Translations under genes and position numbers: made by a program
The notes under the pieces: model-generated
What the model was told of the DNA's origin: nothing
Databases searched by the model: none
The model's input: the letters and a program-made list of their open reading frames with translations, nothing else
NCBI RefSeq assembly: GCF_000003815.2
Contig: NC_049986.1
Span: 4,522,715 to 4,586,714 of the forward strand
Direction: 5' to 3'
Source: Branchiostoma floridae
Taxonomy: Eukaryota > Chordata > Leptocardii > Amphioxiformes > Branchiostomatidae
DNA: 64,000 nt
Shown: positions 10,201 through 63,197 of the stretch, piece by piece
Position numbering within the stretch: position 1 is the stretch's first letter
How the letters are laid out: each line of letters starts with the position of its first letter

Positions 10201-11228
10201 GGTAGACTAAGTTTGTACAATGTAGGTACTGGAGCTTTTCTACATGTTGTCCTCTATGGGACATATGCCTCAGAATGGAATCCTCCAGCCTTTTAAGTCT
10301 AATGACTCTGACATATTATGGCTGTTACAAAGTCTGTGGTGGGAGATTACTTGGTCGTTTTTTCTGTACAGGCCTGTCAGATGTACCGGGGGAGGCCATG
10401 GTGAAACTGTACTGTCCAAAGTGCCAGGATGTCTACACACCTAAGTCCTCCAGACATCATCATATCCTTTCATATGATACCACGATATACCACAACTTCA
10501 ATGGTGGGCCAGCAAAGTCTAGACTTAAACCTAATTGAGAATCTCTGTTGCGGCACGAATACCTCAGAACATAGGTGGGCTGGAGACCTTTGTCCAGAAA
10601 GAATGGCCCAAAAGTCCCATTGTTCTGTTGGCAGCAGGTTATTGCAGCTAAGAGGTGCTGCATGAAGTACTGAAGGCGGAACATCCTTTATGTTTGAAAT
10701 TTACAATTTTGGATGGACTATGAAATGATTGACATTTGCTCTGGAATTTTATAGTAATAAACAACCTTTATATGTATCTGCACACCACTTACATGATTTA
10801 GCAGCAGTCTGTAGTTGCAATATTCCTCATTTTGCCAAAATAGCCCAAATGTGAGGGAGACGAGGTGTGAATAATTCTGCATGCAACTGTATATATCTTA
10901 CTATGATACCTTAACCACATAATCACATATAGATGGAGCTTACTTTGGCACCAGCTTCCCCCACATGTTGTTCATGGTGCATCCTGAGTAAACATGTGTG
11001 TATGGGGTGAAAAGGTGACCTTTGACACCTGTTTTGCCATACCGTCCATTGTATCGTATATGGAGAATCCTAATAAATAAATAAATAAACAATGAAAAAT
11101 CTGCCTATGTTTAACTCTATTGTCTATTCTCTTTCAGATTGTATGGCTTCAAGATCCATCCATTGGCCTATCAGATACAAGCTCAAGCTTCCAACAACTT
11201 CAAGAGTCCTGTGAAAACACTTCGATGA
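7279..11228 (+). CDS. CSNK2B: Casein kinase 2 regulatory subunit beta
   Basis: The beta subunit dimerises through a zinc finger and holds two catalytic alpha subunits in the CK2 tetramer. Coding exons: 7287-7358 (exon begins 7279 after TGTTGCAG), 7895-7997, 8957-9072, 9980-10055, 10372-10461, 10927-10987 and 11138-11228 (TGA). Phases close and give 202 residues. The protein starts [14 protein letters not shown]. It carries the acidic loop DLEPDDELEDN and the zinc-binding cysteines in RVYCENQ and KLYCPKCQD. It ends with LYGFKIHP and SPVKTLR. Apart from one segment the match to vertebrate CK2-beta is near residue for residue. Oddities are a 60-bp tandem duplication across the donor of the third coding exon, an AT-AC intron, and the absence of 13 residues (YRPKRPANQFVPR in human) before LYGF. 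A possible poly(A) signal AATAAA is at 11710-11715. Confidence 0.97.
8092..8287. mobile_element. Palindromic MITE (TACTGTAAATGCA family) in a CSNK2B intron
   Basis: The element starts TACTGTAAATGCAGAAA and ends TTAAATGCATTCACAGTA. Its interior alternates TTCGCGGTGG and CCACCGCGAAC, so it can fold on itself. Relatives are at 21696-21907, 46020-46171 and 54544-54755. No coding capacity. Confidence 0.75.
8594..8889. mobile_element. MITE with TTATAGAACAAT termini
   Basis: The left end TTATAGAACAATATTAATGCTAACACTT is mirrored at the right by GTGTTAGCATTGTTCTATAA. It sits in a CSNK2B intron and ends about 65 bp before the acceptor of the exon at 8957. The interior shows no protein signal. Only one copy was recognised in the window. 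Confidence 0.65.
9037..9279 (+). repeat. Four-copy 60-bp tandem duplication spanning the exon-intron border of CSNK2B
   Basis: Unit starts are 9037, 9097, 9157 and 9217, each exactly 60 bp. A unit holds the last 36 coding bases of the exon (ending [12 protein letters not shown]) and the first 24 bases of the intron, including the splice donor. Copies 1, 2 and 4 keep ATG|GTACAT. Copy 3 reads ATGGAACAT, so its GT is lost. Because 60 is divisible by three the frame stays open through all copies to a stop at 9295-9297. The first donor gives the normal protein. The copies are almost identical, so the event is recent or an assembly artefact. Confidence 0.95.
9628..9950 (+). mobile_element. tRNA-derived SINE-like element
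   Basis: The left part resembles RNA polymerase III control boxes (GAGTCGCATGGCATAATGG; GGTCTGAACCTACT). The body, TTGTGCCCTTAGAAAGCCATTTA ... CAGGTGAAAATAAGTA ... GATCCCGCC-like, is shared with elements at about 27180-27450 and 32687-33010. It lies in a CSNK2B intron. Confidence 0.55.
10462..10926 (+). other. Apparent U12-type AT-AC intron of CSNK2B
   Basis: The only splice choice that keeps CK2-beta in frame here starts with ATATCCTTT (10462-10470), the exact minor-spliceosome 5' site. It ends in AC (10925-10926). A matching branch site, CCTTAAC (10909-10915), has its branch A about 12 nt before the 3' end, as expected for U12 introns. Joining C|AT restores Arg-His-His-His-Ile-Asp-Gly-Ala-Tyr-Phe, where human has Thr in place of Ile. 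No GT-AG pair gives an open frame. A Tc1-like transposase relic lies inside the intron. Confidence 0.85.
10495..10675 (+). pseudogene. Tc1-like transposase C-terminal relic
   Basis: Translated pieces [11 protein letters not shown] and, in another frame, [12 protein letters not shown] with a stop match the end of Tc1-family transposases: the SPDLNPIENLW motif and the final basic helix before the stop. Frames shift between the pieces and the catalytic DDE core is absent, so it is a dead fragment. It is inserted in the AT-AC intron of CSNK2B, on the same strand as the gene. Confidence 0.7.
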
Positions 11229-14200: not shown

Positions 14201-15508
14201 CAAACTAGCTACATACATGTTGACACTTTACACCATAGACATTCTGTATATACAGTCATGCATCTGCTTCATTTCATATAAACTAGGCACGATAAACTTG
14301 ATCATACGATCAGTTGATCATATCTCAGATTTCCTATATGTATTTGAAAGTTTATTTATTGCCTTTTACAATGATATCCCGTTTGATACCTTTAAGTTAG
14401 TTCATGGCTGGAACATCAACTTAAGGCTAGTTACTGTAGGTGTAAAAAAAAAGTGCCAAAAAATTTCTCTTTATTATGTGTCCTTTGTTTTGTAGTAATT
14501 AGCATTTATTATGTGTTCTATCACTAGAAACCATGACAGGGCTCGAAATACCACCTGCATATGCAGGTTAGTGCAGGTAAAATTGGATCTGCGAGGTATT
14601 TCTGATGTCTACCTGCACTTAACCTGCACTGGTCCATGTAAGTTGGTTTTATGCATAAATGTCATTTGGTGTAGGTATATGTGGATTGTTATCAGTTGCA
14701 TTGAATGTTACCACCTGTAAAGTATAGAAGAAAAAATAGCAATGATTCCTGAACAATTTTAGTATGATCCATACTTCCTAAATTCAGAGTGGTGCAGGTG
14801 AAATTTGTCTGGTGCAGGCAATTTTTAGTGTTACCTGAATCAGTGCAGGTATGCAGAAAAAAAGTATTTCGGGCTCTGCATGTGCATGTGAAATACTGTT
14901 CCTTTAAAATAGTACCTCAATGTTATGAGAACGCTTTTGTGAGAGGGTAATACTAAAAAGTGCTGAAATTACCCTTTAGCTACCAATGTCAGACTGTTGG
15001 TAGGGAAATTTTGGAAATTTGTTTTGTGACTCACTTGCACAGTCAGCTATGGTGTTTGACTTTGGGATCAAGACAAGTATGGTATAATTGTAAAGGGTAA
15101 TAAATATGCTTTCCAGTGATCTATACTGGATACTATTCAATTGATAAGTAATAATTAAATGAAGATATGATTGATCTAATTTGGGGTTCCAAACTTTTGA
15201 GTTATATATCAACAATCAACAACTGTCAGACTGGAGAAGTACAATAAACTGCTCAACCAGTTTCTGACAGGTCCTTTATACAGGTGTTTGTAAGCTATAC
15301 ATTCCTAATGTAATACATACATTATGTATACCATATATATATATACCAGATGGCATCACTTTATATGCACTGTGAATAGAAAATCTAAGTCTCAGGACTA
15401 TCAATAATGGCCAATTAGTAAACTTGAAAGATGTTGGCCTTAAATCTAAAAGTAGAAAAGGCTGTGCATTAATTACAAATCAGACAAAGTTGAGATTGAA
15501 ATGTCATC
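11229..15508. other. Intergenic region between the convergent genes CSNK2B and LRSAM1
   Basis: No convincing exon was found. The first 500 bp should be the CSNK2B 3' UTR (AATAAA at 11710-11715). About 12955-13290 is AT-rich interspersed repeat with words like ATTATGCAAATTA, related to 26440-26950 and 31600-31920. A minus-strand frame at 13309-13503 (64 codons) is open but unrecognised. A MITE occupies 14537-14878. The remainder shows only low-complexity AT sequence. Confidence 0.5.
14537..14878. mobile_element. hAT-like MITE with CAGGGCTCGAAATAC termini
   Basis: Left end CAGGGCTCGAAATACCACCTGCATATGCAGG; right end GTATTTCGGGCTCTG. CAGGG...CCCTG termini are usual for hAT elements. Relatives sharing the interior text (ACCTGCAC, TGTCTACCTGCA) are at about 20232-20345 (partial), 37218-37532 and 55829-56117. 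No coding capacity. Confidence 0.75.
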
Positions 15509-16557
15509 TACCCTGTTATTCTACAGAGACCAGGATAACCCTCTGTACGATGTCACCCCTGCACAGCGGACACTGCTCCATGTTACCCTCATTCTACAGA
15601 GACCAGGATAACCCTCTGTACGATGTCACCTCTGCACAGCGGACACTGCTCCATGTTACCCCGTTATTCTACAGAGACCAGGATAACCCTCTGTACGATG
15701 TCACCTCTGCACAGCGGACACTGCTCCATGTTACCCCGTTATTTTACAGAGACCAGGATAACCCTCTGTACGATGTCACCCCTGCACAGCGGACACTGCT
15801 CCATGTTACCCTGTTATTCTACAGAGACCAGGATAACCCTCTGTACGATGTCACCCCTGCACAGCGGACACTGCTCCATGTTACCCTGTTATTCTACAGA
15901 GACAAGGATAACCCTCTGTACGATGTCACCCCTGCATAGCGGACACTGCAGAGAGTTACCCTGTTATTCTACAGAGACAAGGATAACCCTCTGTACGATG
16001 TCACCTCTGCACAGCGGACACTGCAGAGAGTTACCCTGTTATTCTACAGAGACCAGGAAAACCCTCTGTACGATGTCACCCCTGCATAGCGGACACTGCA
16101 GAGAGTTACCCTGTTATTCTACAGAGACCAGGATAACCCTCTGTATGATGTCACCCCTGCACAGCGGACACTGCTCCATGTTACCCTGTTATTCTACAGA
16201 GACAAGGATAACCCTCTGTACGATGTCACCTCTGCACAGCGGACACTGCAGAGAGTTACCCTGTTATTCTACAGAGACCAGGAAAACCCTCTGTACGATG
16301 TCACCCCTGCATAGCGGACACTGCAGAGAGTTACCCTGTTATTCTACAGAGACCAGGATAACCCTCTGTATGATGTCACCCCTGCACAGCGGACACTGCT
16401 CCATGTTACCCTCATTCTACAGAGACAAGGATAACCCTCTGGGCGATGTCACCCCTGCACAGCTGACACTGCTCCATGTTACCCTGTTATTCTACAGAGA
16501 CCAGGATAACCCTCTGTACGATGTCACCCCTGCACAGCGGACACTGCTCCATGTTAC
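15509..16557 (-). repeat. 14-copy, 75-bp array derived from the LRSAM1 RING exon
   Basis: Fourteen head-to-tail units of about 75 bp (two are 2-3 bp shorter) cover this interval. On the minus strand each unit reads as the last part of the LRSAM1 RING domain: CPLCRGDIVQRV, then LVSVE and a TAA stop. The copy at the high-coordinate end is the real 3' coding end of LRSAM1; the other 13 fall in the presumed 3' UTR or flank. Two unit types exist, reading GNMEQCPLC (nine copies) and GNSLQCPLC (five). A 225-bp higher-order block of three units is repeated at about 15961-16185 and 16186-16410. Most differences between copies are silent or conservative in the minus-strand frame. Confidence 0.95.
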
Positions 16558-16612
16558 CTGCACACCCAGCACAGCAGCACACATGGCCACAGTTCAGGAA
16601 CAACACAGATGA
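16487..16612 (-). CDS. LRSAM1: LRSAM1 terminal coding exon (RING, second half)
   Basis: After a TTTTCCAG acceptor the exon reads SSVLFLNCGHVCCCAGCAG and then NMEQCPLCRGDIVQ, ending LVSVE and TAA. It provides the last six zinc ligands of the C3HC4 RING. Spacing from LNCGH to CPLC is identical to human LRSAM1. The final 70 bp are the first unit of the 75-bp tandem array. Confidence 0.95.
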   Translation of the reverse strand, partial: SSVLFLNCGHVCCCAGCAGNMEQCPLCRGDIVQRVILVSVE

Positions 16613-43887: not shown

Positions 43888-45099
43888 ACAAAATGCAACA
43901 AACGATACTGAATTTAAAACAGAACCAAGCTAAGCCTCCACCACTTAACCCTGCCTGTACTATAGATTAAGCAGGCCCAAAAACCAAGCGAATATGACTA
44001 GCCCAAAACTACAAATTACCTGTATACAGTATGGAATTGGAAATGGCATTACCAAAGAAACAAAAAGAAACACAGGACAAATCATACACATACCTTTCTC
44101 TTATGCCCACACTCTATACAGTTCTCCTCCACATTAGAAAATTGCATCTTCTTCTGTTTAAGTTCAAGTTCAACCATGATTGCCAACAGGGTAAAGGAAC
44201 TTGTACCAGAACTTTAAACTCAGCACTATACAGCTCTAGAAACACCACAAAGAGTAATAAGCAAACTCCAATTATACCTGACCAACAGATATATCATCTG
44301 GTACACTCCCGTCATCTGGCAAACTGTCAGTGCCACTAAGTAACCTGATACATTGAAGGTTGCCCCAGGCCAGATGATGGTTCTACACCCAACCGTAATC
44401 TGTTTTCAGAACCAAGCAGATATTGGGAGGATGCCCCAACCACACCAAAACAGGGTCAACCTATACAGCATCAAGTTCAAGCACTAGGAGGCCCAAAATC
44501 AAACCTCACCACCAGGACACCACCAACAACTCACGTACCAAATAGCAACACAATGGCACCTTGCGTTCCGGAGATACAGCGCACGCCCCGTGCCCGCACA
44601 AAAGGTAACCTAAAATGTCAAGTTCAAGCACCAAGGGCGCCAAAATCAAAATTGAGCATTATTCAGCCACCGCCGACACATGTGCCAAATATCATCGCGC
44701 CAGCACCAGCCGTTCAGAAGATATAACTCCGGAAACACCCCTCCCGGACACAAAATTCGACCTGCCGGGTCAAGTTCAAACGCGACAAGGCCCAAAGTCA
44801 ATCCTAGGCAACAGGCAACAACCCCCCATCCATGCACCAAAAATCGTCGCAATCGCGTTTATCGTTCCGGACACACAGCGCCAAAAGTGCCCCAAAAACA
44901 CCAAAAATGCCACCTTCAATGTCAAGGTCAAGCGCCAGGAGGCCCAAAATCACACCTGAGTGTCAGGCCACCACCCCCAACCCACGTACCAAAAATCGTC
45001 GTGCTCGCACCATCCGTTCACGAGATACAGCGCCCTACATCCCCGGCTACCGAAAAGTTCCCACCAGCATCAAAACCATACCTGCATACATGCAGGTAA
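43888..45099 (+). repeat. Dispersed 1.2 kb repeat, copy 2
   Basis: Near-identical to 1-1172 with an extra stretch of about 30 bp near 44010-44045. Its right end is again ATACATGCAGGTAA. The same 150-bp subunits occur from about 44474. A plus-strand frame of 139 codons (44680-45099) is conserved between the copies, but so is the whole sequence, so this says nothing about coding. Confidence 0.85.
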
Positions 45100-45990: not shown

Positions 45991-46681
45991 CTGGATGGAT
46001 TGGTTTCTCTTGTCCCAGATACTGTAAGTTCGCAGTAGCAGGTGGTTTTAAGGTTAATGGATAATATAATGGATAAATGTTCGAAGCACTGGTTCGTTTG
46101 TGGTGAAGTGGCCACCGCCAAAAACCGCGAACATAAAACTATGAACTACGAACAATTCTGCATATATAGTACCAAACATGCAAATGAGGAACTAATTTGC
46201 ATAATTGATGCAAAAATGTCAAAGTACTTAATTATAAATGATGGGATTTTTTTCTTGTGACATGTGTAAGCTATTCAATGATGAACATCACCATGAATAT
46301 TATGTAAATGTGTATGTTATTTGCATAACATCTACAAAATCTCTTAAAAGTATTTCATGGAAGTATGAGGTCTACGGACAGTGATGATGTTGTTAAATGA
46401 TCATATTTCAGTTGGTGGACACTTAAAATGCAGCAAGTTATGTGTTGTGATAAACACAAGAGTGTGAAAAAAGTGAACTGTGTCTATTTTCTATATATGA
46501 TATTCCAGTGCAGTTCTGTTCAGCTCCAACCTGTCTAAAGTCTTCCACGATCAGCCGAAAGTAGAACTCCGGGACTCCCCGACCTTCTAGGAGACAATGG
46601 CTCTTTGGTCAGCCATCACAAGCCTGTTTTCTAAAACAGATGACAGCACCACAAACTGGATAAGGAATAGAAACATCGTCT

Positions 46682-49600
46682 ATGGCGACAGGACAAGGCA
46701 GGTTTTTTTTTTTATTGGGCCATGTTGATTTGATATATGGATGACATTCATGTGTGTATGTATCAATTTTTGTCCATTTCCAAAAATGAAAAAAGGGTTG
46801 AAACAGACTGTAAATCATACAAAGCAGCTGTTAAATGAGCATCTATATGCCATAAATTTAGATTATCGAAATGGATTCTAATGTCATAGACTGCCGATTG
46901 ATTGAAAGTACGTTAATGAATGAATGAATGACCTTTATTGTACATTTGTGCTCTAACAAGCTAAGTACAGGTCGTAGCGCTAGTGATAAGGTACAATTTT
47001 GACAAAAAGGTATCTTATCATCTCTACATATGCTAATACATTCAAGTATGTACAAGTTCAACTTCTTCTCGCTTCTTAAAACAGTTATAAACATAAGGAC
47101 AAATGGAATCAATAATATACTGTTTATCTAATTGCATGAGAAATATGAATTTTAATGTAAATTTCAATATCTAAGAAAATGTGAAAGAATAAACATCTAT
47201 TGCTTACTCAGTGTGTTTAGTCATTTTTTCGACCTTTCTGACTACTTACATTTCCTACTGAGGGCAACATTTTTGGCAAAACTTCTTTTATTCACACGTT
47301 CGCATCAGTTTTGGAGTTTCCAGAGGATGTCATCCACATAATCAAATCATCATGGCTTATAATCAATTATAGGGAGTCTGACTGAATCACAATCTAGTAG
47401 CTCTTCCACTGGTCAGGGGAAGGAAGTGCAATCAGATTGTGTAAAACATTTAGGACAATTATGTATGTTCTGGGGTCTGTTATACTGCAGGAACTTCTGG
47501 TGTTCATATCTTGTGTTCTTATTTTGGCCCCCTTTAGCAGCTTTATTGGTACGTACTGCAGGGGCTGATTTTGTTTGAGACTTTGGAACAGTTACTCAAG
47601 AAGGGGTTGATGCATGGTCATGATTCTTTTATGTATAGATAAGTTTACATGTTAGTGTTGGTAACAGAATAAGTTGCTTAAAATGTAAGACAGGTCGTAA
47701 AATGCATAATTAAGAACTTCAAGGAAATTTTATAAATTCACCGCATTTCTCTTTTTGTATTTCAGGAACCTGTTGACTGTGTTTGAGAAGTATGACAGTG
47801 GAACAGGCAGGCTAGATGCTGGAAATATTGCTGCTGCTTTCAATGAAGTCCACTTGTATCCATCCAAAGCCCAAGGTAGGTGATGAAGTGAAGATAACAG
47901 AAAGTGTCCATGGGAATACAGTGCATACGATTATTTTGCTTACAGGGTAATTTTTTTACAGTATTTTAACCAGCTTTTTTTCCTCCGTCTTACCGGTATC
48001 TTGATTTTACACGTCAATGAGGGTTAGACATCCAGGTAATAAGATACGCCAAAAAGCAGTTACTCAAGCTTCATAATTAGGATATAAAAGACCTGTTCTC
48101 CCAGATCCCTTCAGTGTCACTAACGAAAACTAGTGGATACTAGTTGAAACATCTGACCGTTTCAAAATCATATCCAGTTGATTGAGTATCTAACTGCTTA
48201 TGAGGCGTAATTTTACATGTACCTGATTGTATACAATCTTTGCCAGCCTGGTAGTTCTTCACATGCTTAGATATGTTATACCATTATGTTGTTTTCACTT
48301 TTGTGCCGTTTATGATTATTCAGTCACTCTGGAAGTGATCTGAGCCCAGGTTGGTGATAGCCTGGGTCTATAAACATGGACACCACCAGGGAGCTAACTA
48401 GAAAACTCAAATGTATTTCAATATGCCAACGCTAAAAAATCCTATATAACAGACATCAGGTATAGTGATAAGAAGTACTATGTACTCACTTGTGTAGATT
48501 AGTCATCTAGGATGTAGGTAAAACATAGTTAAATCAATCCTTACTGTTGGATATATGTACGAAATTTATTCATGACAAATGTTTCAGACAGCATCTTTCT
48601 TCAGTGATTGAAAATTAAAGTGTACAAAACTTACAGAACAAAGAATACACATATATTATGTAATATATTACGTGTATGTAGACTAAGTTCTCTTTCAGTG
48701 AGTTGAAATATAAGCGGATAATTTGTATGACTTCAGTGCGTGACATGATCCTGTGTGCGTCTGAGTGCTCTAACCGTGAACCAAGGGACCACATCCTGTT
48801 TGGAGAGTTTTGCATCTTTGTCACTGAGCTGAGGGAAAAATATGAAAGAGAAAGGTATGTTCTCGGGTTTTAATCTTGTCAATAATCTCGTTGAATGATG
48901 TCAACTTCAGTCTAAACCATTTTCCTTTAGTCTGTGTAAAACAAACTCTGCTGTCCAGGGCTGTAACTGGCCCCTCCCCTTCTAGAGGGCCGGTGGATGT
49001 TTGGCGGGCTGCTATAAGCTGCTTCGAATTTTCCTTTTGCAGATTAAGTTTTAGTACGTTTATGGGTACATGTCATGGAGGATTAAAGCTGGCTGGGGTC
49101 AGACTACCAGTAAATAGAGAATGGAGAAAGACACATTTCACATTTGATGAATAAACACCAAAAAGTGTTATAACATAAAGCATAGCATTAACCATATTTT
49201 TCAGGGAACAAATGACGGTTCAAATTAAGAGCTGGCCTCTTGCACATGTGTCCACTGCCATGTTGGACAGCCAGTGTCAAACATGGCAGTGTCCTAAGTT
49301 GCATGGGAACACATCTCAAATTCAAGATCATAACAGATAAGGTATCATGTTAGATTAGCATGAAAGTTCATCTGGTTTTTGCTACATTTATGGACAAGGT
49401 TATATGTAAACTATTCTCCAACTCAAGAAATGGACTTACTGAAATTTCAAATGAATCACTTATAATTAGCAAACGATAGCAGTCTTTGACCTGCTGCTGA
49501 TGTCAGTCATCGGTGTCCAGAGCAATTGGGTTGGAGCACTGAAGAAGACTGAGACAGTGATTCAGTTGAACTTTCTGCTTAGTCAGACTCTTGGGTTTCG

Positions 49601-52600
49601 ATAACAATCTTTGATTTTTCTAGTGATTGTGAAACAATGAAATTTAGATTTAATACATGATTGTATTAATTGTGATATAACACTAATCAACCAATTAAGT
49701 TCTCACACCCTGTTGACAAGTTGAAAGATCATCTTGTACATGACACTGTAAACTCAGCACTACCTACATGTAGTCTTGGACAAAATATTCCAGGACCGTG
49801 ATTCTAAATGTCTCTGCACATTTCAGCCTGTCACCGCCACTCACCACGGACCAAATGAAAAACAAGCACAGATTCTTGAAGAGACAAACATCAAGTAAGC
49901 AGAATCCAGTTGCTACTTTTTTTCTCCTTTCTTCTTAGTGAACTTGTATAATAAAGGGTTAATGCCCCGGCCCGAGGTGTATATGGTGAGATAATCCCTG
50001 GTCACAGTAACTGTTATATTGCATTGCCACTCCTGTAATCTGAAAACATACATGTAAGGCACTTTACAGCAACTGTTACAGTTACATTATTCTGTAAAAT
50101 TGAAGAGAGTAACATATCGTTCATAGGGAGAAGACAATGACAGTTGGGTGGACTAAAAAAAAAGGAAAACATTTAAGTCTTACGTCATTCATGTCAATAT
50201 TTCCAGTCTTCTTTGTGTTGACTCCATCAAATGCCTCTTTAATCAATCTTGTAGAAGAAAGAGAATAAGACAGTCTGTTTAAGACAACCTAATTAAGTTA
50301 TTCTACCCTGGAGGTAGGAAGTGTGACTGTGACACATCATTTGATTGATCTGTACCAAGTTTTAAAAAATCTTTCAACTATCTGCCTGACCAAAATGCAA
50401 GATATTTTGTCTTTGTACACTCAGGTGCATGTACATGTAATGCGTATCAAAATTATCAACATTATTACTTAGCAATACCTTTTCAAAGTTTAAACCGCGT
50501 CCAATACATTATTTACATTGATATAAACAACATTATGGTATTTATGAGACTAGGTTGTGTATTATTACTAATAACATTCCAATCATGTTCTATATATTAA
50601 CTATAATTTACAGGAAACAAAACAACATCATCACGCCATATCTATTAGAAGCCATTGATCATCTTTATGTAAAATTAAGCTATTCATACGAATGTAGAAA
50701 CACATAATTAAAACTCACCATTAAAGAATCCCCCAACAGAAGAATTGTGCCATTTTTCACACACTNNNNNNNNNNNNNNNNNNNNNNNNNNNNNNNNNNN
50801 NNNNNNNNNNNNNNNNNNNNNNNNNNNNNNNNNNNNNNNNNNNNNNNNNNNNNNNNNNNNNNNNNNNNNNNNNNNNNNNNNNNNNNNNNNNNNNNNNNNN
50901 NNNNNNNNNNNNNNNNNNNNNNNNNNNNNNNNNNNNNNNNNNNNNNNNNNNNNNNNNNNNNNNNNNNNNNNNNNNNNNNNNNNNNNNNNNNNNNNNNNNN
51001 NNNNNNNNNNNNNNNNNNNNNNNNNNNNNNNNNNNNNNNNNNNNNNNNNNNNNNNNNNNNNNNNNNNTACTAGTACTTAGGGACGTCATCTGCAAATGTT
51101 CACCTTAGAAACTACTTACTGCAACACAACATTACAGCAGTACAGCATGACTTGTTTGCATTGAGTGCACATGTGCAGCAGGACCATAGTGACCATCATA
51201 GGGCATCTTAGAACAGCAGGGCTCGAAATACTGGGTGCATGTGCACCCAGGTGCACCCAAAATTGTTAAGTGTTAGTAAGATAATAAAAATGTCTGTCAT
51301 GTTACTTGTATAAGAATTTGATAGCTTGTAACTAGGTTTTCTTGACATCCTACTTTAATCTAAGTGGTGCACCCAAAAAATTTTTGTTACACCCAATTTG
51401 TTAAGCTGGGTGCACCAGTGCACCTAATCCCAAAAATGAATTTCGAGCCCTGAACAGCTAGTGTAATGTCAACATTGTCAAACTGCGCTCAGCAGTACCC
51501 TCACACACAAATGTAGCTCCATTAAAAACAGAATTCAGTATGTCTATTTTAAAAGCATACTAATGAGATGATTTGACTTCTTTGTTCCCATACCAGGTGT
51601 CATGTCAAGATTTGAAGGTACGTAGTACTATGATTTACCATGGAAGTTGTAATAACTAAGGAGGGGGCAAGTTGCCCTGTTACCCTGTTTAGCCTACATT
51701 GTACCACAAAATTGCAAGGTACATTTCACAACTAGAAAGACAACATTTGCAAGCAAATAAAGCATATTTCACCCACCTCCCTCCCCATGCAAAAAGGGAC
51801 TGTTCCTGAGCCACAATTATAGGGGAAATTGAAATTATTGAAAAACCCAGGCAACTAATCCCCAAGTGATTTATTGCAATGTCATCCTGGCCTAAAATGA
51901 ATTATCCCTAGGGATGAAATTTGGAAACAGTCACAGACATTTCATCTCCTGCTTTCTCAGGTGGCCAGATTAGAATCTTAATTGATATGCTAATGAGGTG
52001 AAGACAGTTCTATAATAGTTCAATAAAAGACCACTTGTTAATGTATTCTCCATGCTTGATCTCTCTGTTGTTTCTGACTTCTGCAGTGTTCCTGGGAGGC
52101 TCCTGTGTCCCCTCCACATGGAGACAGGATATTGCTATCCCACTGCTCAAACAGTATGGACTCACATACTTTGATCCAGTAGGTCCTTTTTCATCATTCC
52201 ACAGCTAATCTTACATCAAGGTAAAATCAGTAAATCATGACCATAAAAATGTCTATAACAAAATATAACAAAATATACATGAATTCCATCAGGAATGCAT
52301 TTGTTGATTATCCTGGTACCATCCAAATAGCAGTTCCCTCCGATCTTTATTATACATTATATCATACAGTCGCTTCTCTGCTATTCTGCTATTCCGTCTG
52401 GGTACTTGGGCGTGTTTAATACCTAGAATATTCAATTCTCTTCAAAATTTTGAATGAGGGCACTGATTGGTGCCATCTGGGTAGTAGCTCGCTCTTAATG
52501 TTTGCTTCTGCTAACTATGAAACTTAAAATGGTTAACTGATCACTGTATTCGATCAGGTGTTGGAATGCCTATTGAAACGAGTGCTTTAGTACCCATTCC

Positions 52601-55600
52601 TTAATTTGCTTATTAACTGACATCACCACCAAAAGATTTGAATATGCAGTCCATGCAGGTCCAGACGGGTAGCAGAAGTGAACATAGGTCTGGAGCAAAC
52701 CACTACCCGGATGGTGCCCAGGCTATTGGTTGATTCTCGCCGGTGGTATTTTCAGAATATTTTAAAGTCAAGCCCCTCTCTATACAGCAGGCTCCACCCC
52801 TGATGTATTGCCAAAAAATAGCCCACAGTCCTTTGCAGAAATGTCAAGACATAAACAAATTCATGAAAAGTGGTTCAACTTGAAAAAAGTATATTTTGCA
52901 GGAAGGCATGGACTTTGGTACCACATTATGAGCATTTTGAGGCTTATACACCCAGAAAGACATACATCCATTCACATAGGGTGTCACGGTATGCATCCTC
53001 CTCCTACGCAGGGACATCCAACAATGAAACCGCCTGTCTGTTTGTATGTGCACTGCTTTCTCAACCGTCAACCTTAGTTCCTGTGGATGTCCCCCCCCCC
53101 CCGCCAAACCAGCTGTTAGCCAATAGAATAGGCCTTTCCGTTTTCAAAAGGGGTCTTGCATATATAAGGGTAAGCTGATTAATATTTATTAGCAGGGCGG
53201 TCAGGAACTAAGGGTGACGGTTGAGAAAGCAGGGTACATCCAGACAGGAGGTTTCGCTGTTGGATGTCCCTGCGGGTGGATATGCGTGGGTATGCGTGTT
53301 TAATCCACATTTGACTTGACATTTAATATGTATGTTCAAGGTGCATGAAATCTGGGGACCAGAGCTGGTTGAAGTGGAAAACCGAGGCCAAAAAGGTAAG
53401 CCTATTTTTCACAACAAAGAAAGATTCAGTGATTGATGCATGGAGATGAATACACAATAAAGCAAGGGTAGGAAAATAATCATAAATACCCCAGTAAAAA
53501 AATGCTGGTCAGGACAATTTTTGAGGATTACAGACATTTCAAAGGCCACCCAGCATTCTTTATTAGTGAAAATAGAATAACTGTGTACATGCACATAGTG
53601 GCCAGAGAGTGACCGGATAGTGAGTTCTTGGTTCCGTCAAAAAATATGGTCATGTCTAACACAAAACACAGCAGGGACACAATTTAGTTAACTTAGCTAA
53701 AAAAAACCAATAACAAACAGCCTTTAAAGATATCGGGTAGGGAAAGGACTCGACTGTCTTTTATAAAGACTTCACCATGGATTCGTATGTTGGTAGAGTC
53801 AGGTGGAGGATACCCTGGATCTTTGTCTTTCCTGTGTTGGAAGTCACCTTCGTGACATGTGCTATAACTCCGATTTGCATGTCTACTCTTGATATGNNNN
53901 NNNNNNNNNNNNNNNNNNNNNNNNNNNNNNNNNNNNNNNNNNNNNNNNNNNNNNNNNNNNNNNNNNNNNNNNNNNNNNNNNNNNNNNNNNNNNNNNAAAT
54001 ATATGCGCTAAACGTAAAAAAACAGAATTGAAGCGACGAAACATAGTATCACAGCCTACAAGGCATTCATTTCTGTATTCAGACGTGAACTAGTGTAGTA
54101 AAGGTGACACTAGTGTGGTAGACTGGTATCACTTACCAACATGGCAACAACACTCATGGCTTCCATGTTGGGGCCACTTTTACAACTATCTAACTAAAGT
54201 TTTAGTTTCACTTCTATAACTACAGTCATGGCTATCTGGTCACTTCTACAAGTACAACCATTAGCCCACTGCACAACAAATTTGCCCGTTTTGGTACTTT
54301 CTCGTCATCTTGACCATCTCCGAAGCAAAAAAAAAATCTTGTTTTTTCTGAAATCAGGCAAAAATTAATGCGCGCGCTGATGTCATCCATAAAATTTACT
54401 TGCTGTGGCCTTATTAAATCATTATCAAATTATCAGGTTAAATTCCCCCACATCCTCTAGCATAAGCACACATGTACAGTCGTGGTTCATTATATGTGAT
54501 ACACAAATCTCTCGGCTTGGCTTCGTGAATGAATCATCACAAATACTGTAAATGCATTTAAGTTCGCGGGGATTTAATTTCGCGGCAGCGGGAAAAAGGA
54601 CTTTTCGCGGTGGATTTAATTTCGCAGTAGCACCATGCAATGTAGTATCTTAATGCCCCGGAAAAATGTTCACGATGGTTTTAAATTCGCGGTGAAACGG
54701 CCAACGCGAAAACCGCGAACATAAATCCACCGCGAACATTTCTGCATTTACAGTACCATCCAAATATAATGATACATGTTGAAAAGGGCATTTTATAAGG
54801 TTCTCACTGTGTTTATCCAGGGTGCAGACCTGTTATTGTTTGTGTTTGATGATGTGACCAGAGGTATAGCAGCCATGGTGGAAGTGGCATATCTTGTGGG
54901 TAAGTCACTAAGTGTTAAGTGAAGATGTCAACTTTTGACCATCATTCAACTTTCAAGTTAACACCTTCCAGTTTAATTCTGCATTTATTCTGAAGTGACC
55001 TCTCATATCTCGGTCACCTCACATCCAGATGGATGTAAAAATGAAGTACACTCTAAATTTGCGTAATTGTACATAATTATGCATAAAGTGCCAGGGTTTG
55101 GGGTGGGTACCGGTACAGAAAATTCAGGTCCAGGTCCTATACCAAGCCCTAGCCAGGGTTATGCATAATTATGCATAAGCTTTCAATAATTAAAAATATG
55201 ATAAATTGCAATGGATTATGCATATTAACTGTAAACCATTGTAGCTTTATGCATAAATATTGTAACTTTATGCATAAATATCAGGGCTCGAAATACTGGG
55301 TGCATGTGCACCCAGGTGCACCCAAAATTGGAACTGTGCACCCAATTTTTTTCAGTGGGTGCACAGGGTGCACCCATTGTTTTCTTAGGTTTATGTATGG
55401 AAAATATCAAGTATACTAGTATACATCGTATTCTTGACATCTAAGTGTTAGAAAGATAATAAAAATGTCTGTCATGTTACTTGTTTAAGAATTTTATAGT
55501 AGGTTTTTTTACATTCTACTTAAATTTTTGGTGCACCCAATTTTTTAAGCTGGGTGCACCAGTGCACCTAATCCCAAAAATGAATTTCGAGCCCTGAATA

Positions 55601-58600
55601 TACATGTATATAACCCTTTGTCCAGAACCCCAATTTCTTAAGAGCTGCAGTGATTTTCCCTTGCACTTTTCAATTTCACTCAACCATCTGGCAAAAACTG
55701 GTACCGGTACATCTACAAAATGTAAAAGACTGGTCTTGCAAAAATATCAAAGCCGATGTTGTGTACAGACGGAAATGTGGGGAAACCCAACCGCAGTTCA
55801 AGTTCGCTAGGTCCTGGAAAAATAGTTCACAAGGCTCAAAATACTTTTTTCTGCATACCTGCACTGGTGCAGGTAACATTGAAAATTACCTGCACCACTC
55901 TGAGTTTTAATAGGAAGTATGGATCATAGGTGGTAACAGCCAATGCGGCTAAGAACAATCCACAATCATGCAGCTACATGATCATGATAGGACATTTGTG
56001 TCTAAAACCCAGTACTTGAACCAGTGCAGGTTAGGTGCAGGTAGACACCAGAAATACCTGCACAGCTCCAATTTTACCTGCACTAACCTGCATATGCAGG
56101 TGGTATTTCGAGCCCTGTAGACTGTAGTTACGACTGAGTGTGAACAGGACCTTTGTTGTGTGTCTCTTAGGACAAGGTCGGCCTGTGATCCTGGTGGTGA
56201 TGGGACTACCTCTGCCTGGAGTAATCATCAATGGACAGACACTACATGACAGGTTGGTAGATTCAACTTTTAAATTCACTCACTCACTCACGGCCCATAA
56301 CCACAGNNNNNNNNNNNNNNNNNNNNNNNNNNNNNNNNNNNNNNNNNNNNNNNNNNNNNNNNNNNNNNNNNNNNNNNNNNNNNNNNNNNNNNNNNNNNNN
56401 NNNNNNTCTTCGGTGCTTAGGCCAGTCCATGTCTTAATGTTGTCCAGCCACATCTTCCTTGGCCTACCTCGTTTCTTCCCTCCTGCTACTGTGCCTAATG
56501 TAGTAATGAGGGGGTTGTGCCGGCATATGTGGCCAAACCAGTTCAGCTTCCGACGCTTGACCGTGGACAGGAGTGGTTCTTGCTTGCCACATGCTGCCTA
56601 TGCCTTTTAAATTCCTGGATACTTTTTTAGTATACTTCTAGGAATGTTTGCATCACAAGATGGAAAAAGATCACAAATCTGACTTCTACCAAGAACACAG
56701 ATGAACGTGTGTCGTGATTGTTTTTCCCAGTGAAGTTGAGGATTTAGAGCGTGGCCATGCTGTGCTGTTTGACCTGGTGGAGAGGCAGGGGATCCCGGTG
56801 TTCGATGACATACCAACTGCTGTGCACTGTGCAGCCAAGGTGCTGCGTATGGGCATCAGTGTGCAGGACCTTAGTAAAAGAGATGGAGCGCAGTGTGTGA
56901 AAAATGCACACATCTCTGTTGGGGAATCTTTAATGTGAGTATAATTATGTCTTCTACAATCGTATGATAGCTTAATTTACATAAAGATGATCAATGGCTT
57001 CTTATAGATATGGCGTGATGATGTTGTTTTGTTTCCTGTAAATTATAGTTAATATATAGAACATGATTGGAATGTTATTAGTAATAATACACAACCTAGT
57101 CTCATAAATACCATAATGTTGTTTATATCAATGTAAATAATGTATTGGACGCGGTTTAAACTTTGAAAAGGTATTGCTAAGTAATAATGTTGATAATTTT
57201 GATACACATTACATGTACATGCACCTGAGTGTACAAAGACAAAATATCTTGCATTTTGGTCAGGCAGATAGTTGAAAGATTTTTTAAAACTTGGTACAGA
57301 TCAATCAAATGATGTCTCACAGTCACACTTCCTACCTCCAGGGTAGAATAACTTAATTAGGTTGTCTTAAACAGACTGTCTTATTCTCTTTCTTCTACAA
57401 GATTGATTAAAGAGGCATTTGATGGAGTCAACACAAAGAAGACTGGAAATATTGACATGAATGACGTAAGACTTAAATGTTTTCCTTTTTTTTTAGTCCA
57501 CCCAACTGTCATTGTCTTCTCCCTATGAACGATATGTTACTCTCTTCAATTTTACAGAATAATGTAACTGTAACAGTTGCTGTAAAGTGCCTTACATGTA
57601 TGCTTTCAGATTACAGGAGTGGCAATGCAATATAACAGTTACTGTGTCTCATCTTACTCAGGTATGTCTCACATACAAAGCACTAACTGGAAAGGACCTG
57701 ACTGTTGCAGAAGTAAAAGACATCTGCAATGTTAGTTCCTCCAGAAAGGAGGAGCTGACTTTTAATTTTCAAGAACTTTGCTGCATAGTTGATGAGTTCA
57801 AATCTAAGGTAGGTAATTATCATTCTGTAAGTTATTGTTTTGAGTTACAAGCCAACAGTTCTAGGGGTGGGTACTGGTCCAAAACCATAGTTTCTTGTTG
57901 AAAACCAGCCCAATAAAACCGGACCTGAACCAAATCAGTGAACCAGATTTTGGACCAGTTAGAAAATGTTATAGGGCATATTTTAGGGCTACTAGTCCAA
58001 GAAAATAACAAGAGCAAAACAGAGACTGTGGAATTTATAGACATTTCTACCAAGTTTCTACAGTCAAATGCATTTTGCCTTGTTTACATAAACATTTTTA
58101 TACGCCAGATACTCCACCAAGCAGATTTCTTTGTAGAAAAAAGGACATGTCCATTGTTTTGAGTAACATATTCACATTCAAGTTTTCACAGACAATCAGG
58201 TCCAGGTTCAGACCCGGACCTGAACCGGAATTTTCTGTACGTAGTCTGCTCAGAATTTTAAGTAAAACACAGCCATGTCTTCTATAGTCAAACAGTTCTG
58301 TCTTGAAACCATGCCAGATAATTACTCCGTTTGGAGTAGGGTATTTAGTGCAGGCAGCAAAATGAAAAAAACAAACACTTGCAGACAGATAAGCAAACAA
58401 AAATCATTTATATTAATTTCTCCTTCAGTTTGAAATGATTAACACATCTGCAGTCCTGAGCGTACATGTTTATCCATATCAAGTAATGTTGTCTTTTGCC
58501 ATGATGAGTTACATTAAAGTTTTTCTCCTATTTGTTGCAGACACATTACAGCATGGGGGATTTCTTCTCCTTCATTTTCAATGGGCTATATACACTTTTT

Positions 58601-61600
58601 GGTAAGTATGCAAAATTATTCTTAAATCTTGAGAACATACTTGAATGTATAGTTAAAGTTAAAGTTGCCCGTACATCAGTAACAGATGCGTAGGGGTGGC
58701 GCCCATCTCCATTTCTGTAGCCCTTGGGCCACACATGTGCAAGTCACTACAGCAGGGGGCTGGTCCGCTGGTAGTGATGTGTGTTTAACTTCCATACTCT
58801 TCCTCATTAGTGCTGAGTGCTAAGCAGAGAAAGCAGCATGTACCATTTTTAAAGTCTTTGGTATGACTCGGCCGGGGATCGAACTCACGACCTACCGAAT
58901 GCAAGGCGAACACTCTAACCACTAGGCCATTGCACCGGTTTATGTATATTGTAATGTATAGTGTTTATGCAAAATAAGCAAAACGTAAAAATGGGAGAAG
59001 TTTAACAATTACAAACTTGTATGAGTCAGTGTATGTTCACAGCACGTCATTGACCAAACTGATATGTTTTCACATCATTAGGCTGGATGCAGTATAGAAA
59101 AGCAGAGCAGGTTATCATGGAAGACTTGACGATAAGGCGGGACGTCTTCTTGGGCGGCAGTTGTGCAAACACAACATGGAGGGAGCAGATTGCCATTCCA
59201 TTGTTAAGGTACTCGTCTCCCCTTGATTTCATTTCCTTTGCAGCATTGTGAATCATGTTTATCAAAAATAGTATTGTGATATACAAAGAATAATTTTTCT
59301 AGGTTTTCTTAGCTTGTGGATAGATTTTCGCCAATACTAGTTCACTTTTATCCATCAGCCTTTTAATCTGTCATCTGTCATCTTCTAATCTGTCATCAAT
59401 CTTTCGGACAATTTCATTTCAGTTTTCAGATTCATCATATTGCTTCTGTCCAGTCAACTTCTAGAAATGCTTCAAGTTGTGAAATGTTTTACATTGATTT
59501 CTATTTTTTTCAGGAAACATGGCATAACGTATTTCAACCCACATCTTCCGGTGTGGAATTTACGTTATCTGCCTCTTGAGAACGAAGCCAAGGCCAACTG
59601 TACAGTTTTCCTGGCTGTCATCACAGGAGAGACAAGAGGTCTAGCTTCTATGATAGAGGTATGTTAAATCTTGTTTATAATACTGGTGATACTTTATATA
59701 AAACATAGGACTTTAATTTGTAACAGTTACTTGTAGGGATAGGTTACTGTGGGTACTGGTACCGGTAAAGAAAATTCAGGTCCAGGTTCAGGTCCAGAGG
59801 ATCAGGTACAGGTCTGGACCTGAACCTGGACCTGATTGTCTGTAAAGACTTTTGAATTGGCGATACTCAAAAAAAGTGGTCCATTTCGCTTCAAAGGAAT
59901 GTGTTTGGTGGAATATCTTACTCAAACTGGAAGTAAAAATGCTATCTGGATGACTGTGCAGAAGTCTTACTGCCTCTGTACAGTACTTTTCACTATAGAA
60001 ACGTGATTGAAATGACTTTACTCTGATTTTTACTTAATCATTTCTTCAGACGGCAAACTCCAAGATGTGTAAACACCTGCTGATATAATGTGTTCATTTT
60101 CTAATTGGTCCAAAATCCAGTCCACAGATTTTATCGGATCCAGTTTTTTGGACCGGCCCAAAAAGAAAAATTGGTTTTGTACTGGTGCAATGTATCGGTC
60201 CCCACCCCTATCCCTGTAGAATGTACTAGACTATTAGTATAGACCATAGACTAACTTTGTTTATCTATTTATTTCTGTTCATAACAAATGAAATGTTCCC
60301 AGGTTTGAGAAATGATGACACTCAATGACATGACAAAATCTGTTTCAGATTGCATTCTTTATTGGTCAGGATCGAGACCTTGTTCTTTCTCTGGAGGACA
60401 TACAGGATGGAACTGTGATCAATGGCCACAAGGTAAAAGTAACTGGTTAAACTAATCTGCACTTTATTTGCTAGTACAGTACTGTTACAGTTAGAAGCTT
60501 ATCATCGTCCTCCTCATCACAAGCTAACAAACTTTATTCTCCAGAGCTGCATGAAGTACTGCATACCAAAAACTCGAGACCATGAGTAAATTTTTGGTCT
60601 CACTCAATTCCAGTGTGACTTTTAGACACAATCTACACAATGTCATTTAGGTACAGTTACATGTACTTATGATCAGATGTTATGCCAAGCAAATTGCTAA
60701 ACTACAACTACAACAGGGATGCTAGTGTTACCAAAATGAAAATAGATCTGCAGTGGACATCACTTGAAGACAGAAGAAAAATGTCCAGACTTTGCATGAT
60801 GTACAAAATGACTAATAAACTGGTGGACGTACCGACTGATAAGTATCTAATACCAGCTCAAAAAAGAACAAGGAACATCCATGTAAGTGACTTCAAGTAT
60901 AAGAGTTACCAACCTAGGATTGATGTGTTCAAAAATTCCTATTTTCCCAGAACTATCGTAGAGAGGAATTTGCTATCACCAAGCACAGTAGGGGCATCAT
61001 CTCTGGATAGCTTTAAAGAACACTTGCAGATAGATGTGCAAAAGTTAGGTGTGACGGGTCCTTCGGTGTAATATAACCAGCTGCTGTCGCGCCGCGTGCC
61101 TGCAAGCTCTTGTGTTATGCCGAAGGGCGGTTATACCGGCTATATAGATACAGATACAGAAACTGATGCTTGGGGAGCCAGACCGCTTTGGGACTTTAAG
61201 TAGGGTTACATAGATAACAAATTAAATGGGATTGCGTACATATGGCCTCCTTCGGTCAATACTGACCATGGTAAAATCCTAGTTGATATCAGCCCTACAG
61301 CATCGACTGTGGTTTAACAGTCTTATACGAGAATGACAGTCACTGCCAAATAGGGCACATGCGTCAACTGACTCAGGTCTGTTGCAGTGTTCTGTTATGC
61401 ATTTGTTTGTCATAGGCTTTATGGTTTTATTCTCTGTGTAAATGCATTTACGACATCCTGTCCAGGTGACCAATCAGGAGCTACAGGACTACTCTCGTGG
61501 GCGTGTCTACCTGGCAGACGCCGCAAACTGTCATGGGATTCCTGTGTTCACGGAAATCACTGAGGCTGTGGAATGTGCAATCAAGAAAGTTCACAAGCTT

Positions 61601-61615
61601 TCTGTTGACAGCTAG
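46682..61615 (+). CDS. Two-unit EF-hand-like / nucleoside 2-deoxyribosyltransferase-like protein
   Basis: Seventeen coding exons: 46682-46701, 47766-47875, 48737-48854, 49827-49894, 51597-51617, 52087-52178, 53341-53395, 54821-54899, 56171-56252, 56731-56934, 57402-57465, 57662-57808, 58541-58601, 59082-59208, 59514-59658, 60349-60432, 61466-61615. The product is about 541 residues: EF-hand-like segment (about 8-90), deoxyribosyltransferase-like domain 1 (about 113-275), EF-hand-like segment 2 (about 285-370), domain 2 (about 394-541). The domains share VFLGGSC, TWRxxIAIPLL, GxTYFxP, TRGxAxMxE and a C-terminal GIPVF. The TRG..E glutamates (E182, E464) are candidate catalytic residues by family analogy. 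The family cleaves or transfers deoxyribose between bases; activity here is unproven. One extra base appears at the 53395/54821 junction. The start is tentative: an in-frame stop lies at 46661. Poly(A) signal AATAAA 61908-61913. Confidence 0.85.
46912..47105 (-). mobile_element. LINE-like 3' end with GAAT repeat tail
   Basis: AATGAATGAATGAATGACC followed by TTTATTGTACATTTGTGCTC is the reverse complement of a usual LINE 3' terminus with a short tandem tail. A similar (GAAT)n start followed by TTTATTGCTCAACA is at 31985-32030. It lies in the first intron of the deoxyribosyltransferase-like gene. Confidence 0.45.
50003..50765 (-). repeat. Inverted duplicate of part of the deoxyribosyltransferase-like gene
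   Basis: This segment is the reverse complement of about 56888-57648 over its whole length, with small differences. It contains an intact minus-strand copy of the exon at 57402-57465 (GNIDMND before GTAAGA) and the end of the exon at 56731-56934. It stops at the N gap starting at 50766, so the true length is unknown. It lies between exons 4 and 5 of the same gene. Confidence 0.9.
50766..51067. other. Assembly gap (302 N)
   Basis: The gap directly abuts the inverted duplicate at 50003-50765. Confidence 0.99.
51217..51452. mobile_element. hAT-like MITE, CAGGGCTCGAAATAC termini with GTGCACCC interior
   Basis: Starts CAGGGCTCGAAATACTGGG and ends AATTTCGAGCCCTG. The interior is rich in GGTGCACCC. 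It shares termini with the 14537 family but a different body. The second copy of this body is 55282-55596. Confidence 0.8.
52990..53290. mobile_element. Foldback element, CTCCTACGCAGGGACATCC family
   Basis: Left CCTCCTACGCAGGGACATCC, right GGATGTCCCTGCGGGTGG. The interior has GGTCAGGAACTAAGG pairing with CCTTAGTTCCTG, plus a poly(C) run at 53089-53102. It lies just upstream of the exon at 53341. Relatives at 6909-7203 and 29612. Confidence 0.75.
53897..53996. other. Assembly gap (100 N)
   Basis: In the intron between exons 53341-53395 and 54821-54899 of the deoxyribosyltransferase-like gene. A short extra exon could be hidden here. Confidence 0.99.
54544..54755. mobile_element. Palindromic MITE, TACTGTAAATGCA family
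   Basis: TACTGTAAATGCATTTAAG at the left, TTCTGCATTTACAGTA at the right, interior TTCGCGGTGG and CCACCGCGAAC. It is the best preserved of the four copies and ends 65 bp before the exon at 54821. Confidence 0.8.
55282..55596. mobile_element. hAT-like MITE with GTGCACCC interior, copy 2
   Basis: Starts CAGGGCTCGAAATACTGGG, ends ATTTCGAGCCCTG. Matches 51217-51452 with an inserted middle of about 80 bp. Confidence 0.8.
55829..56117. mobile_element. hAT-like MITE, CAGGGCTCGAAATAC family
   Basis: A decayed left end (AAGGCTCAAAATAC) and a good right end (TATTTCGAGCCCTG) enclose the TACCTGCACTGGTGCAGGTA body. Ends about 55 bp before the exon at 56171. Confidence 0.7.
56307..56600 (-). pseudogene. 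LINE reverse-transcriptase ORF C-terminal fragment beside an assembly gap
   Basis: Gap 56307-56406 (100 N). The minus strand of 56407-56600 translates to RRKLNWFGHICRH and GKKRGRPRKMWLDNIKTWTG, the conserved tail of many animal LINE polyproteins. The rest of the element is probably in the gap. It lies in an intron of the deoxyribosyltransferase-like gene, opposite to it. Confidence 0.75.
58640..58940 (-). mobile_element. tRNA-derived SINE on the minus strand
   Basis: Read on the minus strand, CAATGGCCTAGTGGTTAGAG is an A-box-like segment and GTGAGTTCGATCCCCGGCC a B-box-like segment, 30-40 bp apart. It then continues for over 200 bp beyond the tRNA-like head. No acceptor stem is formed, so it is a SINE rather than a tRNA gene. 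Confidence 0.7.
59735..60215. mobile_element. GGTCC-rich element with AGGGATAGG / CCTATCCCT ends
   Basis: Left AGGGATAGGTTACTGTGGGTAC, right GGTCCCCACCCCTATCCCT. The interior repeats CAGGTCCAGGTTCAGG and GGTCCAAAATCCAGTCC. Related partial copies at about 57862-58245, 29330-29395, 55100-55150 and 1340-1500. Non-coding. Confidence 0.6.
60660..61165 (+). mobile_element. 3' end of a LINE-like retrotransposon, copy 2
   Basis: A 129-codon frame (60682-61071) encodes the conserved tail of a non-LTR reverse transcriptase ORF: LQWTSLEDRRKMSRLCMMYK, YLIPAQKRTRN, YFPRTIVERN and SLDSFKEHL. It is followed by a 3' UTR shared with 34405-34622 and an ATAGATACAGATACAG tail. 5' truncated, inserted sense in the last intron of the deoxyribosyltransferase-like gene. 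Confidence 0.8.
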
Positions 61616-62617
61616 CTGCTCAAATATGGGACCGGTCCCAACACTTATGGATTTAAAGTCACCATGTCCTAGACACCCTGATCTGATGTATTTGCAAGAA
61701 GCAACGAAATAGCCATTAATCATGATCATATCTGACCATTGATATGGTGAGGTATTGACCATGAGTATCTGCTTGTGTCTGTATAATGCCATCTAACACA
61801 ATGCCGTATGTTCTTGATTAAAGTACGCTTCCAAATGATATGCACCTCTAATTCGGCAGAGGTCACAGACAACATTGAAGGACTGAAATAAGTAATGGAA
61901 AAACTCAAATAAAGTATGTGCACCTTCTCTACCAATCTTGAACATATTTTGAACAGCATTAATTCAAATTTATGGTGTTTTATTCTCTTTCTACAGCAAA
62001 AATCAAGGACAATGTCATCTTGCTTAAATTTGTAAAAAAAAATTGCTGCATGCTGGCATTGTCTCTACAAACGTGTCTACCACAAATTACAAATGGAATT
62101 ACTCAGTCAGAGTTCATTAAAACAAATTGAATGACAAAATTGTAGCTTTGCATACTTCCTAGAACAGTTACTGTAGCTCCACCTTGCTCTATTTGAGGTC
62201 CTTTTCCCATTTATTTGCATAATAAACTCATGTAAAGTATGCACCCCGGCTTTGGCAACAACTTGCAACACCTTTTGGAGTTTGAAAAGTGTCAAAAGTG
62301 AGTACTTTATTCAAGAATATACCATGACAAATTGTCAGTAAAGCAGCTGTAGTTGTGTTTGCAGGGATGCATTAGAGAAACTTTAGAGGAAAACTTATTG
62401 GAGCTGCAGAGTATTCAACATCATTTCAGCAGCAGAAGACAATGACAGTAAACTTCTAGTAACAGACTGAGTATACATTGACACCCCAGGTCTAGGGATA
62501 ATATCTTAATAACTTGTAGATGTAGGTTATAACTAATCCAGTCTGTCCCAGCTGCTCTAGCTATATAAGGGAAAATAGCCTCATTGTAAGAATGCTAATG
62601 TATGTACCAAACAATGT
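61616..62617. other. 3' UTR and downstream flank of the deoxyribosyltransferase-like gene
   Basis: The UTR probably ends shortly after AATAAA at 61908-61913. Beyond that no coding or repeat structure is recognised up to the mariner element. Confidence 0.5.
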
Positions 62618-62619
62618 TA

Positions 62620-63197
62620 CGAGGGGCGTGCAATAAGTAATGGTCCTGACCCATTTCCCATAGCAGGAGATTAATGAAACTTGGCACAGTTATTAGTCTT
62701 TCTCTTCATAGGAATCACCCAGAGTTATGCATTTCTCCCATCGTTTGATGCAGCTCTGGACACCGATTTTGTAGGACACCCCAGGTTGGTCCACCAACTG
62801 ATGCCTCATCAATGGCACAAGAGGGACGACCAGGTCTGGGAGCTGTTTCCACAGACTTCCAGCCACGTTTGAATTCAGGATGCCAGCGTTTTACAAGGTC
62901 ATATGATGGGGCATCATCACCATAAGTTTCATTTATTTCATCAAAAGTCTTCTTTGGTGTGCGTCCTTTCAAATACAAAAACCGGATCACTGCGCGACAC
63001 TCAACTGGTTCCATTTCACACCTGGTCCATTTCGCACCTGACTAAGTTCAAACACCAGTAAATCAGAAACCACAATTAGTTCAGAGCTGTCTTTTGCAAC
63101 ATAACCCATAGAGATATGAATTATTACAGATACAAAATTTCATTTAGATCAGAGAACTGGAAGTGGGTCAGGACCATTACTTATTGCACGCCCCTCG
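62620..63197 (-). mobile_element. Internally deleted mariner-type transposon
   Basis: A 578-bp element flanked by TA on both sides. Its ends are perfect inverted repeats of 34 bp beginning CGAGGGGCGTGCAATAAGTA. On the minus strand a 99-codon frame starts MEPVECRAVIRFLYLKG and contains KTFDEINETYGDDAPSYDLV and RPGRP, the DNA-binding N-terminus of mariner transposases. After about 75 residues it jumps to unrelated text and the DDD catalytic domain is gone. It cannot move by itself, but its intact ends could be used by a transposase supplied elsewhere. The perfect ends suggest a young insertion. Confidence 0.9.

Follow-up and report, generated by a model that had tools for sequence, protein, structure and literature searches.

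Analysis of a 64,000-nucleotide stretch of the Branchiostoma floridae genome (contig NC_049986.1, positions 4,522,715 to 4,586,714; hereafter the window) revealed a gene whose predicted product carries two domains of the PF15891 family. With moderate confidence, we interpret this product as an intracellular two-unit protein of the Raw/OLRN-1 type with a predicted active site, which would restrain SARM1-ASK1-type signalling by acting on a nucleotide related to nicotinamide adenine dinucleotide (NAD) or adenosine diphosphate ribose (ADP-ribose). The gene comprises 17 exons on the forward strand (46597-61615), spliced into a predicted protein of 566 residues, as an earlier sequence-only reading of a seventeen-exon gene with two successive units had anticipated; this model, predicted from the genomic sequence, is well supported. 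In each unit, a degenerate EF-hand-like helical pair is proposed to precede a Rossmannoid domain of the DrHyd (TIR/deoxyribosyltransferase-like) class.

Two PF15891 domains and their probable fold

The whole window protein matches PF15891 (Nuc_deoxyri_tr2) with 100.8 bits, and the single units do so with 49.6 bits (unit 1) and 57.8 bits (unit 2), all above the gathering cut-off of 30 bits. Domain 1 begins in exon 6 (52087-52178), which encodes strand 1 and the TWR motif (VFLGGSC..STWR..YFDP), and continues through exon 7 (53341-53395; the W and the second acidic residue E183), exon 8 (54828-54899; TRGIAAMVE with E207) and exon 9 (56171-56252; the GQGRPVILVV strand). Domain 2 is encoded by exon 14 (59082-59208; strand 1 and the TWR motif, VFLGGSC..TTWR), exon 15 (59514-59658; YFNP, W, the second acid E463 and, in TRGLASMIE, E489), exon 16 (60349-60432; the GQDRDLVLSL strand) and exon 17 (61466-61615; domain end and stop codon).

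A fitted alignment of 114 distinct relatives, from which one truncated phage row had been removed beforehand, shows five residues (R, P, W, E and E) that occur in all 114 rows, and both window domains keep all five. Because the search patterns for these relatives were built around VFLGG-C and YFNP..W, P and W are favoured, whereas R and both glutamate columns lie outside the patterns; the relatives also had to be confirmed by tblastn against domain 2, a step that biases the set towards similar rows. The first glutamate column, which we take to be the nucleophile position of deoxyribosyltransferases, contains E207 and E489 (domains 1 and 2, respectively), and a 32-row alignment likewise has glutamate there in both domains; the second contains E183 and E463. 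The motif D-x-G-T-x-x-E, presumably that of canonical nucleoside 2-deoxyribosyltransferases, is absent, as both domains have a glycine and no aspartate six residues ahead of the glutamate. Neither the window protein (E up to 1) nor its single units (E up to 10) matched PF05014.

The fold was assessed on a structural model of a bacterial relative (L097), in which E76 lies within a helix (72-87) that follows a strand (57-64). A fold search with this model recovered deoxyribosyltransferases, DNPH1/RCL and MilB and also TIR domains, which it resembles nearly as well as deoxyribosyltransferases. In the TIR-DrHyd-SLOG Rossmannoid class, strand 3 is followed by a loop or helix that carries the active-site residue (PMC9503650). 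The modelled relative shows this arrangement, which can be carried to the window domains through the alignment, and these domains almost certainly belong to the TIR/deoxyribosyltransferase-like (DrHyd) class. They share the fold class and the glutamate column with nucleoside 2-deoxyribosyltransferases, DNPH1/RCL and MilB, but differ in lacking both the PF05014 match and the aspartate ahead of the glutamate. Unlike TIR domains such as those of SARM1, plant TIR proteins and SPARTA, they have no TIR family in a Pfam scan of the window protein, and profile comparison with TIR gave 0.2% (E 0.29), against 99.5% (E 1.1e-22) for the two window domains and 48 relatives. The sequence-only reading had proposed two deoxyribosyltransferase-like domains. 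The Pfam family, the fold of the relative and the conserved glutamate column agree with it, and the structural comparison on which it depended did find a deoxyribosyltransferase fold, in a bacterial relative rather than in the window protein itself; in naming deoxyribosyltransferases only, it captured the likeness of the domains and left the TIR matches unconsidered.

Other searches returned little. Solved structures searched by sequence with the window protein gave centrins only (E 0.037 or worse), and those searched with the family profile gave chance-level matches (best E 0.16). PHROGs had no match for either domain, NCBIfam none for the window protein, and a literature search found no paper on Nuc_deoxyri_tr2, PF15891 or FLGGSC. 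The Pfam model had no match in the B. floridae genome (513,431,437 bases in 431 contigs), whereas a protein search found the exons, which suggests that single exons are probably too short for the model.

Phage and bacterial relatives

At a threshold of E 1, a search of 50,697 phage records found relatives of domain 2 in 21, of which 15 are Lak phages of Prevotella. A first scan of viral sequences with the two window domains alone as input gave five pattern stretches, none confirmed; in the viral contig scan, 233 of 243 pattern stretches were confirmed, indicating that PF15891-type proteins are frequent there, and 80 of the 233 (L015-L094) were retained. The prokaryote genome scan gave 63 loci, a few of them with identical proteins. 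These phage and bacterial proteins belong to the same Pfam family as the window domains and have the five invariant residues in common with them, but are mostly single-domain proteins of about 126-160 residues, and in the aligned rows their IAIPLL stretch is one residue short and their C-terminal part shorter. A phage origin of the gene is not supported: in a midpoint-rooted tree, which has long branches, the window domains belong neither to the phage/bacterial GGTC group nor to the Chloroflexota group. A recent tandem duplication that kept its introns was rejected, as intron positions differ between the two units, and the duplication is therefore probably old. A Lak megaphage protein (L009 1489-2379, code 15) carries two deoxyribosyltransferase-like domains of different types on one chain, the second of which also matches PF05014 at E 5.9e-5, under its cut-off. 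The viral PF15891-type proteins may act in salvage or, alternatively, against TIR-based defence.

At seven of the 63 prokaryote loci, the reading frame runs on from the PF15891 domain into TIR (L106 4995-6416; L109 1804-3987; L126 181-4131; L138 4995-8951; L147 4995-7349; L151 4995-6344; L154 4995-6341). TIR_2 was present in all six fusions scanned with Pfam (E 1e-15 to 1e-74), two of which additionally contain WD40 or FGE-sulfatase; the L147 fusion was recognised by reading and with a home-built TIR profile that included L147, and the PF15891 match of L151 is under the cut-off. All seven form one clade (support 96/97) within the phage/bacterial group and therefore represent a single fusion lineage rather than seven events. 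In a Bacteroidota sample of 30 loci, of which the 14 on the forward strand were read and the 16 on the minus strand set aside, the centre genome itself supplied the only fusion, so such fusions are not common there. On an Aureispira plasmid (L013 1989-4201), two genes for TIR-domain proteins follow a PF15891 gene. PADLOC returned no match for three single-domain proteins, and for three fusions its listed matches fell within the TIR part or past it. DRHyd and TIR are both named among the effector domains of bacterial conflict systems (PMC8195603), and the association is thus already known at class level; the PF15891-TIR fusions are candidate conflict or defence proteins. The fusions resemble the window protein in their PF15891 domain, with a TIR domain of the class that includes SARM1 on the same chain, but they differ from it in having one to three TIR domains, and WD40 or FGE-sulfatase in two cases, and in forming a clade separate from the window domains.

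Comparison with Raw and OLRN-1 and a possible mechanism

Raw of Drosophila, which we take to be listed with PF15891 in domain databases, and OLRN-1 of C. elegans are considered here from portions of two papers. OLRN-1 has two short repeats of 32 and 33 residues as deleted (77-108 and 396-428), about 320 residues apart, the second followed by a part deleted as 429-539, and its similarity to Raw peaks in the two repeated domains (PMC2213652). The window protein has conserved stretches of 31 residues at 140-170 and 420-450, 280 apart, with 116 residues after the second. In layout, as distinct from sequence, both proteins thus contain two repeats of about 32 residues at similar spacing, which suggests that the window gene quite probably represents the Raw/OLRN-1 family in a chordate.

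Several features differ. The N-terminal part has 76 residues in OLRN-1b and 139 in the window protein. Raw is described as transmembrane (PMC10719852), and a hydrophobic region is reported for OLRN-1 that is stated to be missing from Raw itself (PMC2213652), whereas no strongly hydrophobic segment was found in the window protein, so that a transmembrane nature is not supported for it. EF-hand-like stretches, present in the window protein, go unmentioned in the portions describing Raw and OLRN-1.

The sequence-only reading knew of no described function for the architecture, which leaves genetic work out of account: genetics shows OLRN-1, with its similar layout, and Raw to act as brakes on JNK/p38 signalling (PMC2213652, PMC10719852), and their phenotypes concern dorsal closure, glia, neuronal asymmetry and axon degeneration. 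Deletion of the first OLRN-1 repeat nearly abolishes activity and deletion of the second does not lower it much; the C-terminal part is needed, and a missense change there, G466E, lowers activity (PMC2213652). Counted by plain offset from the start of the repeat, this change would correspond to residue 490 of the window protein, beside E489. How Raw works is called a challenging question in a 2023 paper (PMC10719852).

We propose that the two PF15891 domains, which keep the five family-invariant residues including both glutamates, would adopt the deoxyribosyltransferase/TIR fold seen in the modelled relative, with the nucleophile-column glutamate in the helix after strand 3. Their predicted chemistry is cleavage or transfer at the N-glycosidic bond of a bound nucleotide, most likely NAD or an ADP-ribose-type TIR product. 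A TIR/SARM1-derived signal might in this way be lowered or read, restraining the ASK1-JNK/p38 output as Raw and OLRN-1 do genetically, while the EF-hand-like parts may serve as adaptors, in a structural role or for the binding of partners, and not as calcium switches. It is reasonably likely that one domain or both are catalytically active, and a substrate related to NAD or ADP-ribose is suggested tentatively. Rather speculatively, Raw/OLRN-1-type proteins in general might be N-glycosidases that consume or rewrite the NAD/ADP-ribose messenger made by SARM1/TIR-1, a metabolic off-switch with bacterial roots. Three results on Raw do not speak for a direct effect on SARM1: Raw and dSarm do not colocalise, the genetics fits action of Raw downstream of dSarm, and Raw promotes axon degeneration, the reverse relationship (PMC10719852). 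The tir-1 olrn-1 double mutant is mixed and nearly wild type (PMC2213652).

The main alternative is a non-catalytic sensor or scaffold, whose domains would influence kinase signalling by assembly, on binding either a nucleotide or another TIR domain, with no chemistry. The nearly equal match to TIR folds and the missing canonical aspartate are consistent with such a role, as are the serving of inactive class members as nucleotide-binding sensors (PMC9503650) and the unequal importance of the OLRN-1 repeats. Non-catalytic copies often lose active-site residues. The window domains, however, both keep both glutamates, invariant among all 114 relatives, and we regard a sensor or scaffold as a serious but rather unlikely explanation. 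Improbable, in our view, is a housekeeping enzyme of nucleotide salvage or sanitation comparable to deoxyribosyltransferases or DNPH1 and devoid of a signalling role. The Pfam name, the structural matches to deoxyribosyltransferases, DNPH1/RCL and MilB, and the abundance of single-domain relatives in phages, where nucleotide metabolism genes are common, would accord with it, but the two-unit architecture with its adaptor-like helical pairs, the lack of a PF05014 match, the bacterial TIR fusions and the signalling phenotype of OLRN-1 argue against it.

Exon chain, EF-hand-like stretches and implications

Exon 1 (46597-46697) contains the start codon and an N-terminal segment and was picked for frame, without a homology anchor. 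Unit 1 continues with exon 2 (47766-47875), which encodes an EF-hand-like helix-loop-helix (YDSGTGRLDAGNI), exon 3 (48737-48854) with the second EF-hand-like stretch, a linker in exon 4 (49827-49894) and a 21-base microexon ahead of domain 1 (exon 5, 51597-51617) that has GT-AG ends and preserves the frame. The last part of domain 1 and the linker to unit 2 lie together in exon 10 (56731-56934); the EF-hand-like stretches of unit 2 are encoded by exon 11 (57402-57465; FDGVNTKKTGNIDMND) and exon 12 (57662-57808), followed by a linker in exon 13 (58541-58601). A candidate polyadenylation signal, identified by motif match only (AATAAA, 61908-61913, forward strand), lies about 290 bases 3' of the stop. 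All introns are GT-AG save for the GC donor of exon 1 at 46698, which preserves the frame that the GT at 46702 loses. At exon 8, the nearer AG acceptor is off frame by one base, and an in-frame AG seven bases on was picked; it drops two residues present at the equivalent place of unit 2 and possibly reflects a sequence error, an allele or genuine use.

The exon chain might instead belong to two genes, or its reading frame might be interrupted, either in the genome itself or through an assembly error, as the second-choice splice sites of exons 1 and 8, a start codon within exon 11 and an inverted copy of this exon near an assembly gap could suggest. Exon 10, however, runs from the end of domain 1 into the linker in one frame, stop-free to its donor; intron 10 has 467 bases, in which a scan found neither AATAAA nor ATTAAA; the remaining splice junctions are in frame; and OLRN-1 likewise has two repeats in one protein (PMC2213652). 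A single two-unit gene is thus predicted from the genomic sequence, and a split or broken one seems quite improbable. The inverted copy lies in intron 4 (50003-50673, minus strand) near a 302-base gap and is antisense to a segment containing exon 11 (56976-57646, forward strand). The two 671-base arms differ by four mismatches, and a genome search with this segment returned these two places only. Past the arm, the similarity extends, by eye, as far as the N gap and is interrupted by numerous single-base insertions, resembling a poor read end; the copy is therefore likely an assembly artefact.

In the window protein, EF-hand_7 scored 20.3 bits (E 7e-4) and EF-hand_6 14.4 bits, below their gathering cut-offs of 30 and 25 bits, and unit 1 by itself had no EF-hand match in Pfam. 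In the four loops, placed by eye in the 566-residue protein, the canonical D-x-D-x-D-G calcium loop is absent, position 1 being Y, N, N and S. Calcium sensing is not supported on these grounds, and neither is the possible calcium-responsive segment that the sequence-only reading had considered. A calcium-regulated enzyme, to which the E value of EF-hand_7, the weak centrin matches (best E 0.037) and the genetic placement of OLRN-1 beside calcium channels and CaMKII (PMC2213652) would point, is very improbable given the sub-threshold scores, the unmatched unit 1 and loops none of which, by eye, starts with aspartate and also has acidic residues in its third and fifth positions.

Elsewhere in the window, we observed one exon of a gene for the beta subunit of casein kinase II (10206-10535; Pfam CK_II_beta, E 9.5e-9), a fragment of a Mariner-type transposase (62718-63041, minus strand; HTH_48, E 1.3e-10) and a tandem coding-like repeat array, probably a minisatellite (15376-16609; LCTMSPLHSGHCSMLPCYSTETRI and variants). 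Stretches of several hundred bases at 431-1169 and 44349-45096, 44 kb apart, have open frames that are near-identical by eye. The window had no match in Rfam at gathering thresholds.

If the repeats of Raw and OLRN-1 are the domains described here, both proteins would possess an intact predicted TIR/DrHyd active site, and the question of how Raw works would come down to the role of two to four glutamates and of NAD-related nucleotides. An animal brake on SARM1-linked signalling would then be tied to bacterial proteins that join PF15891 and TIR on a single chain, and the predicted active sites would suggest a concrete chemistry for poorly understood regulators of stress pathways.

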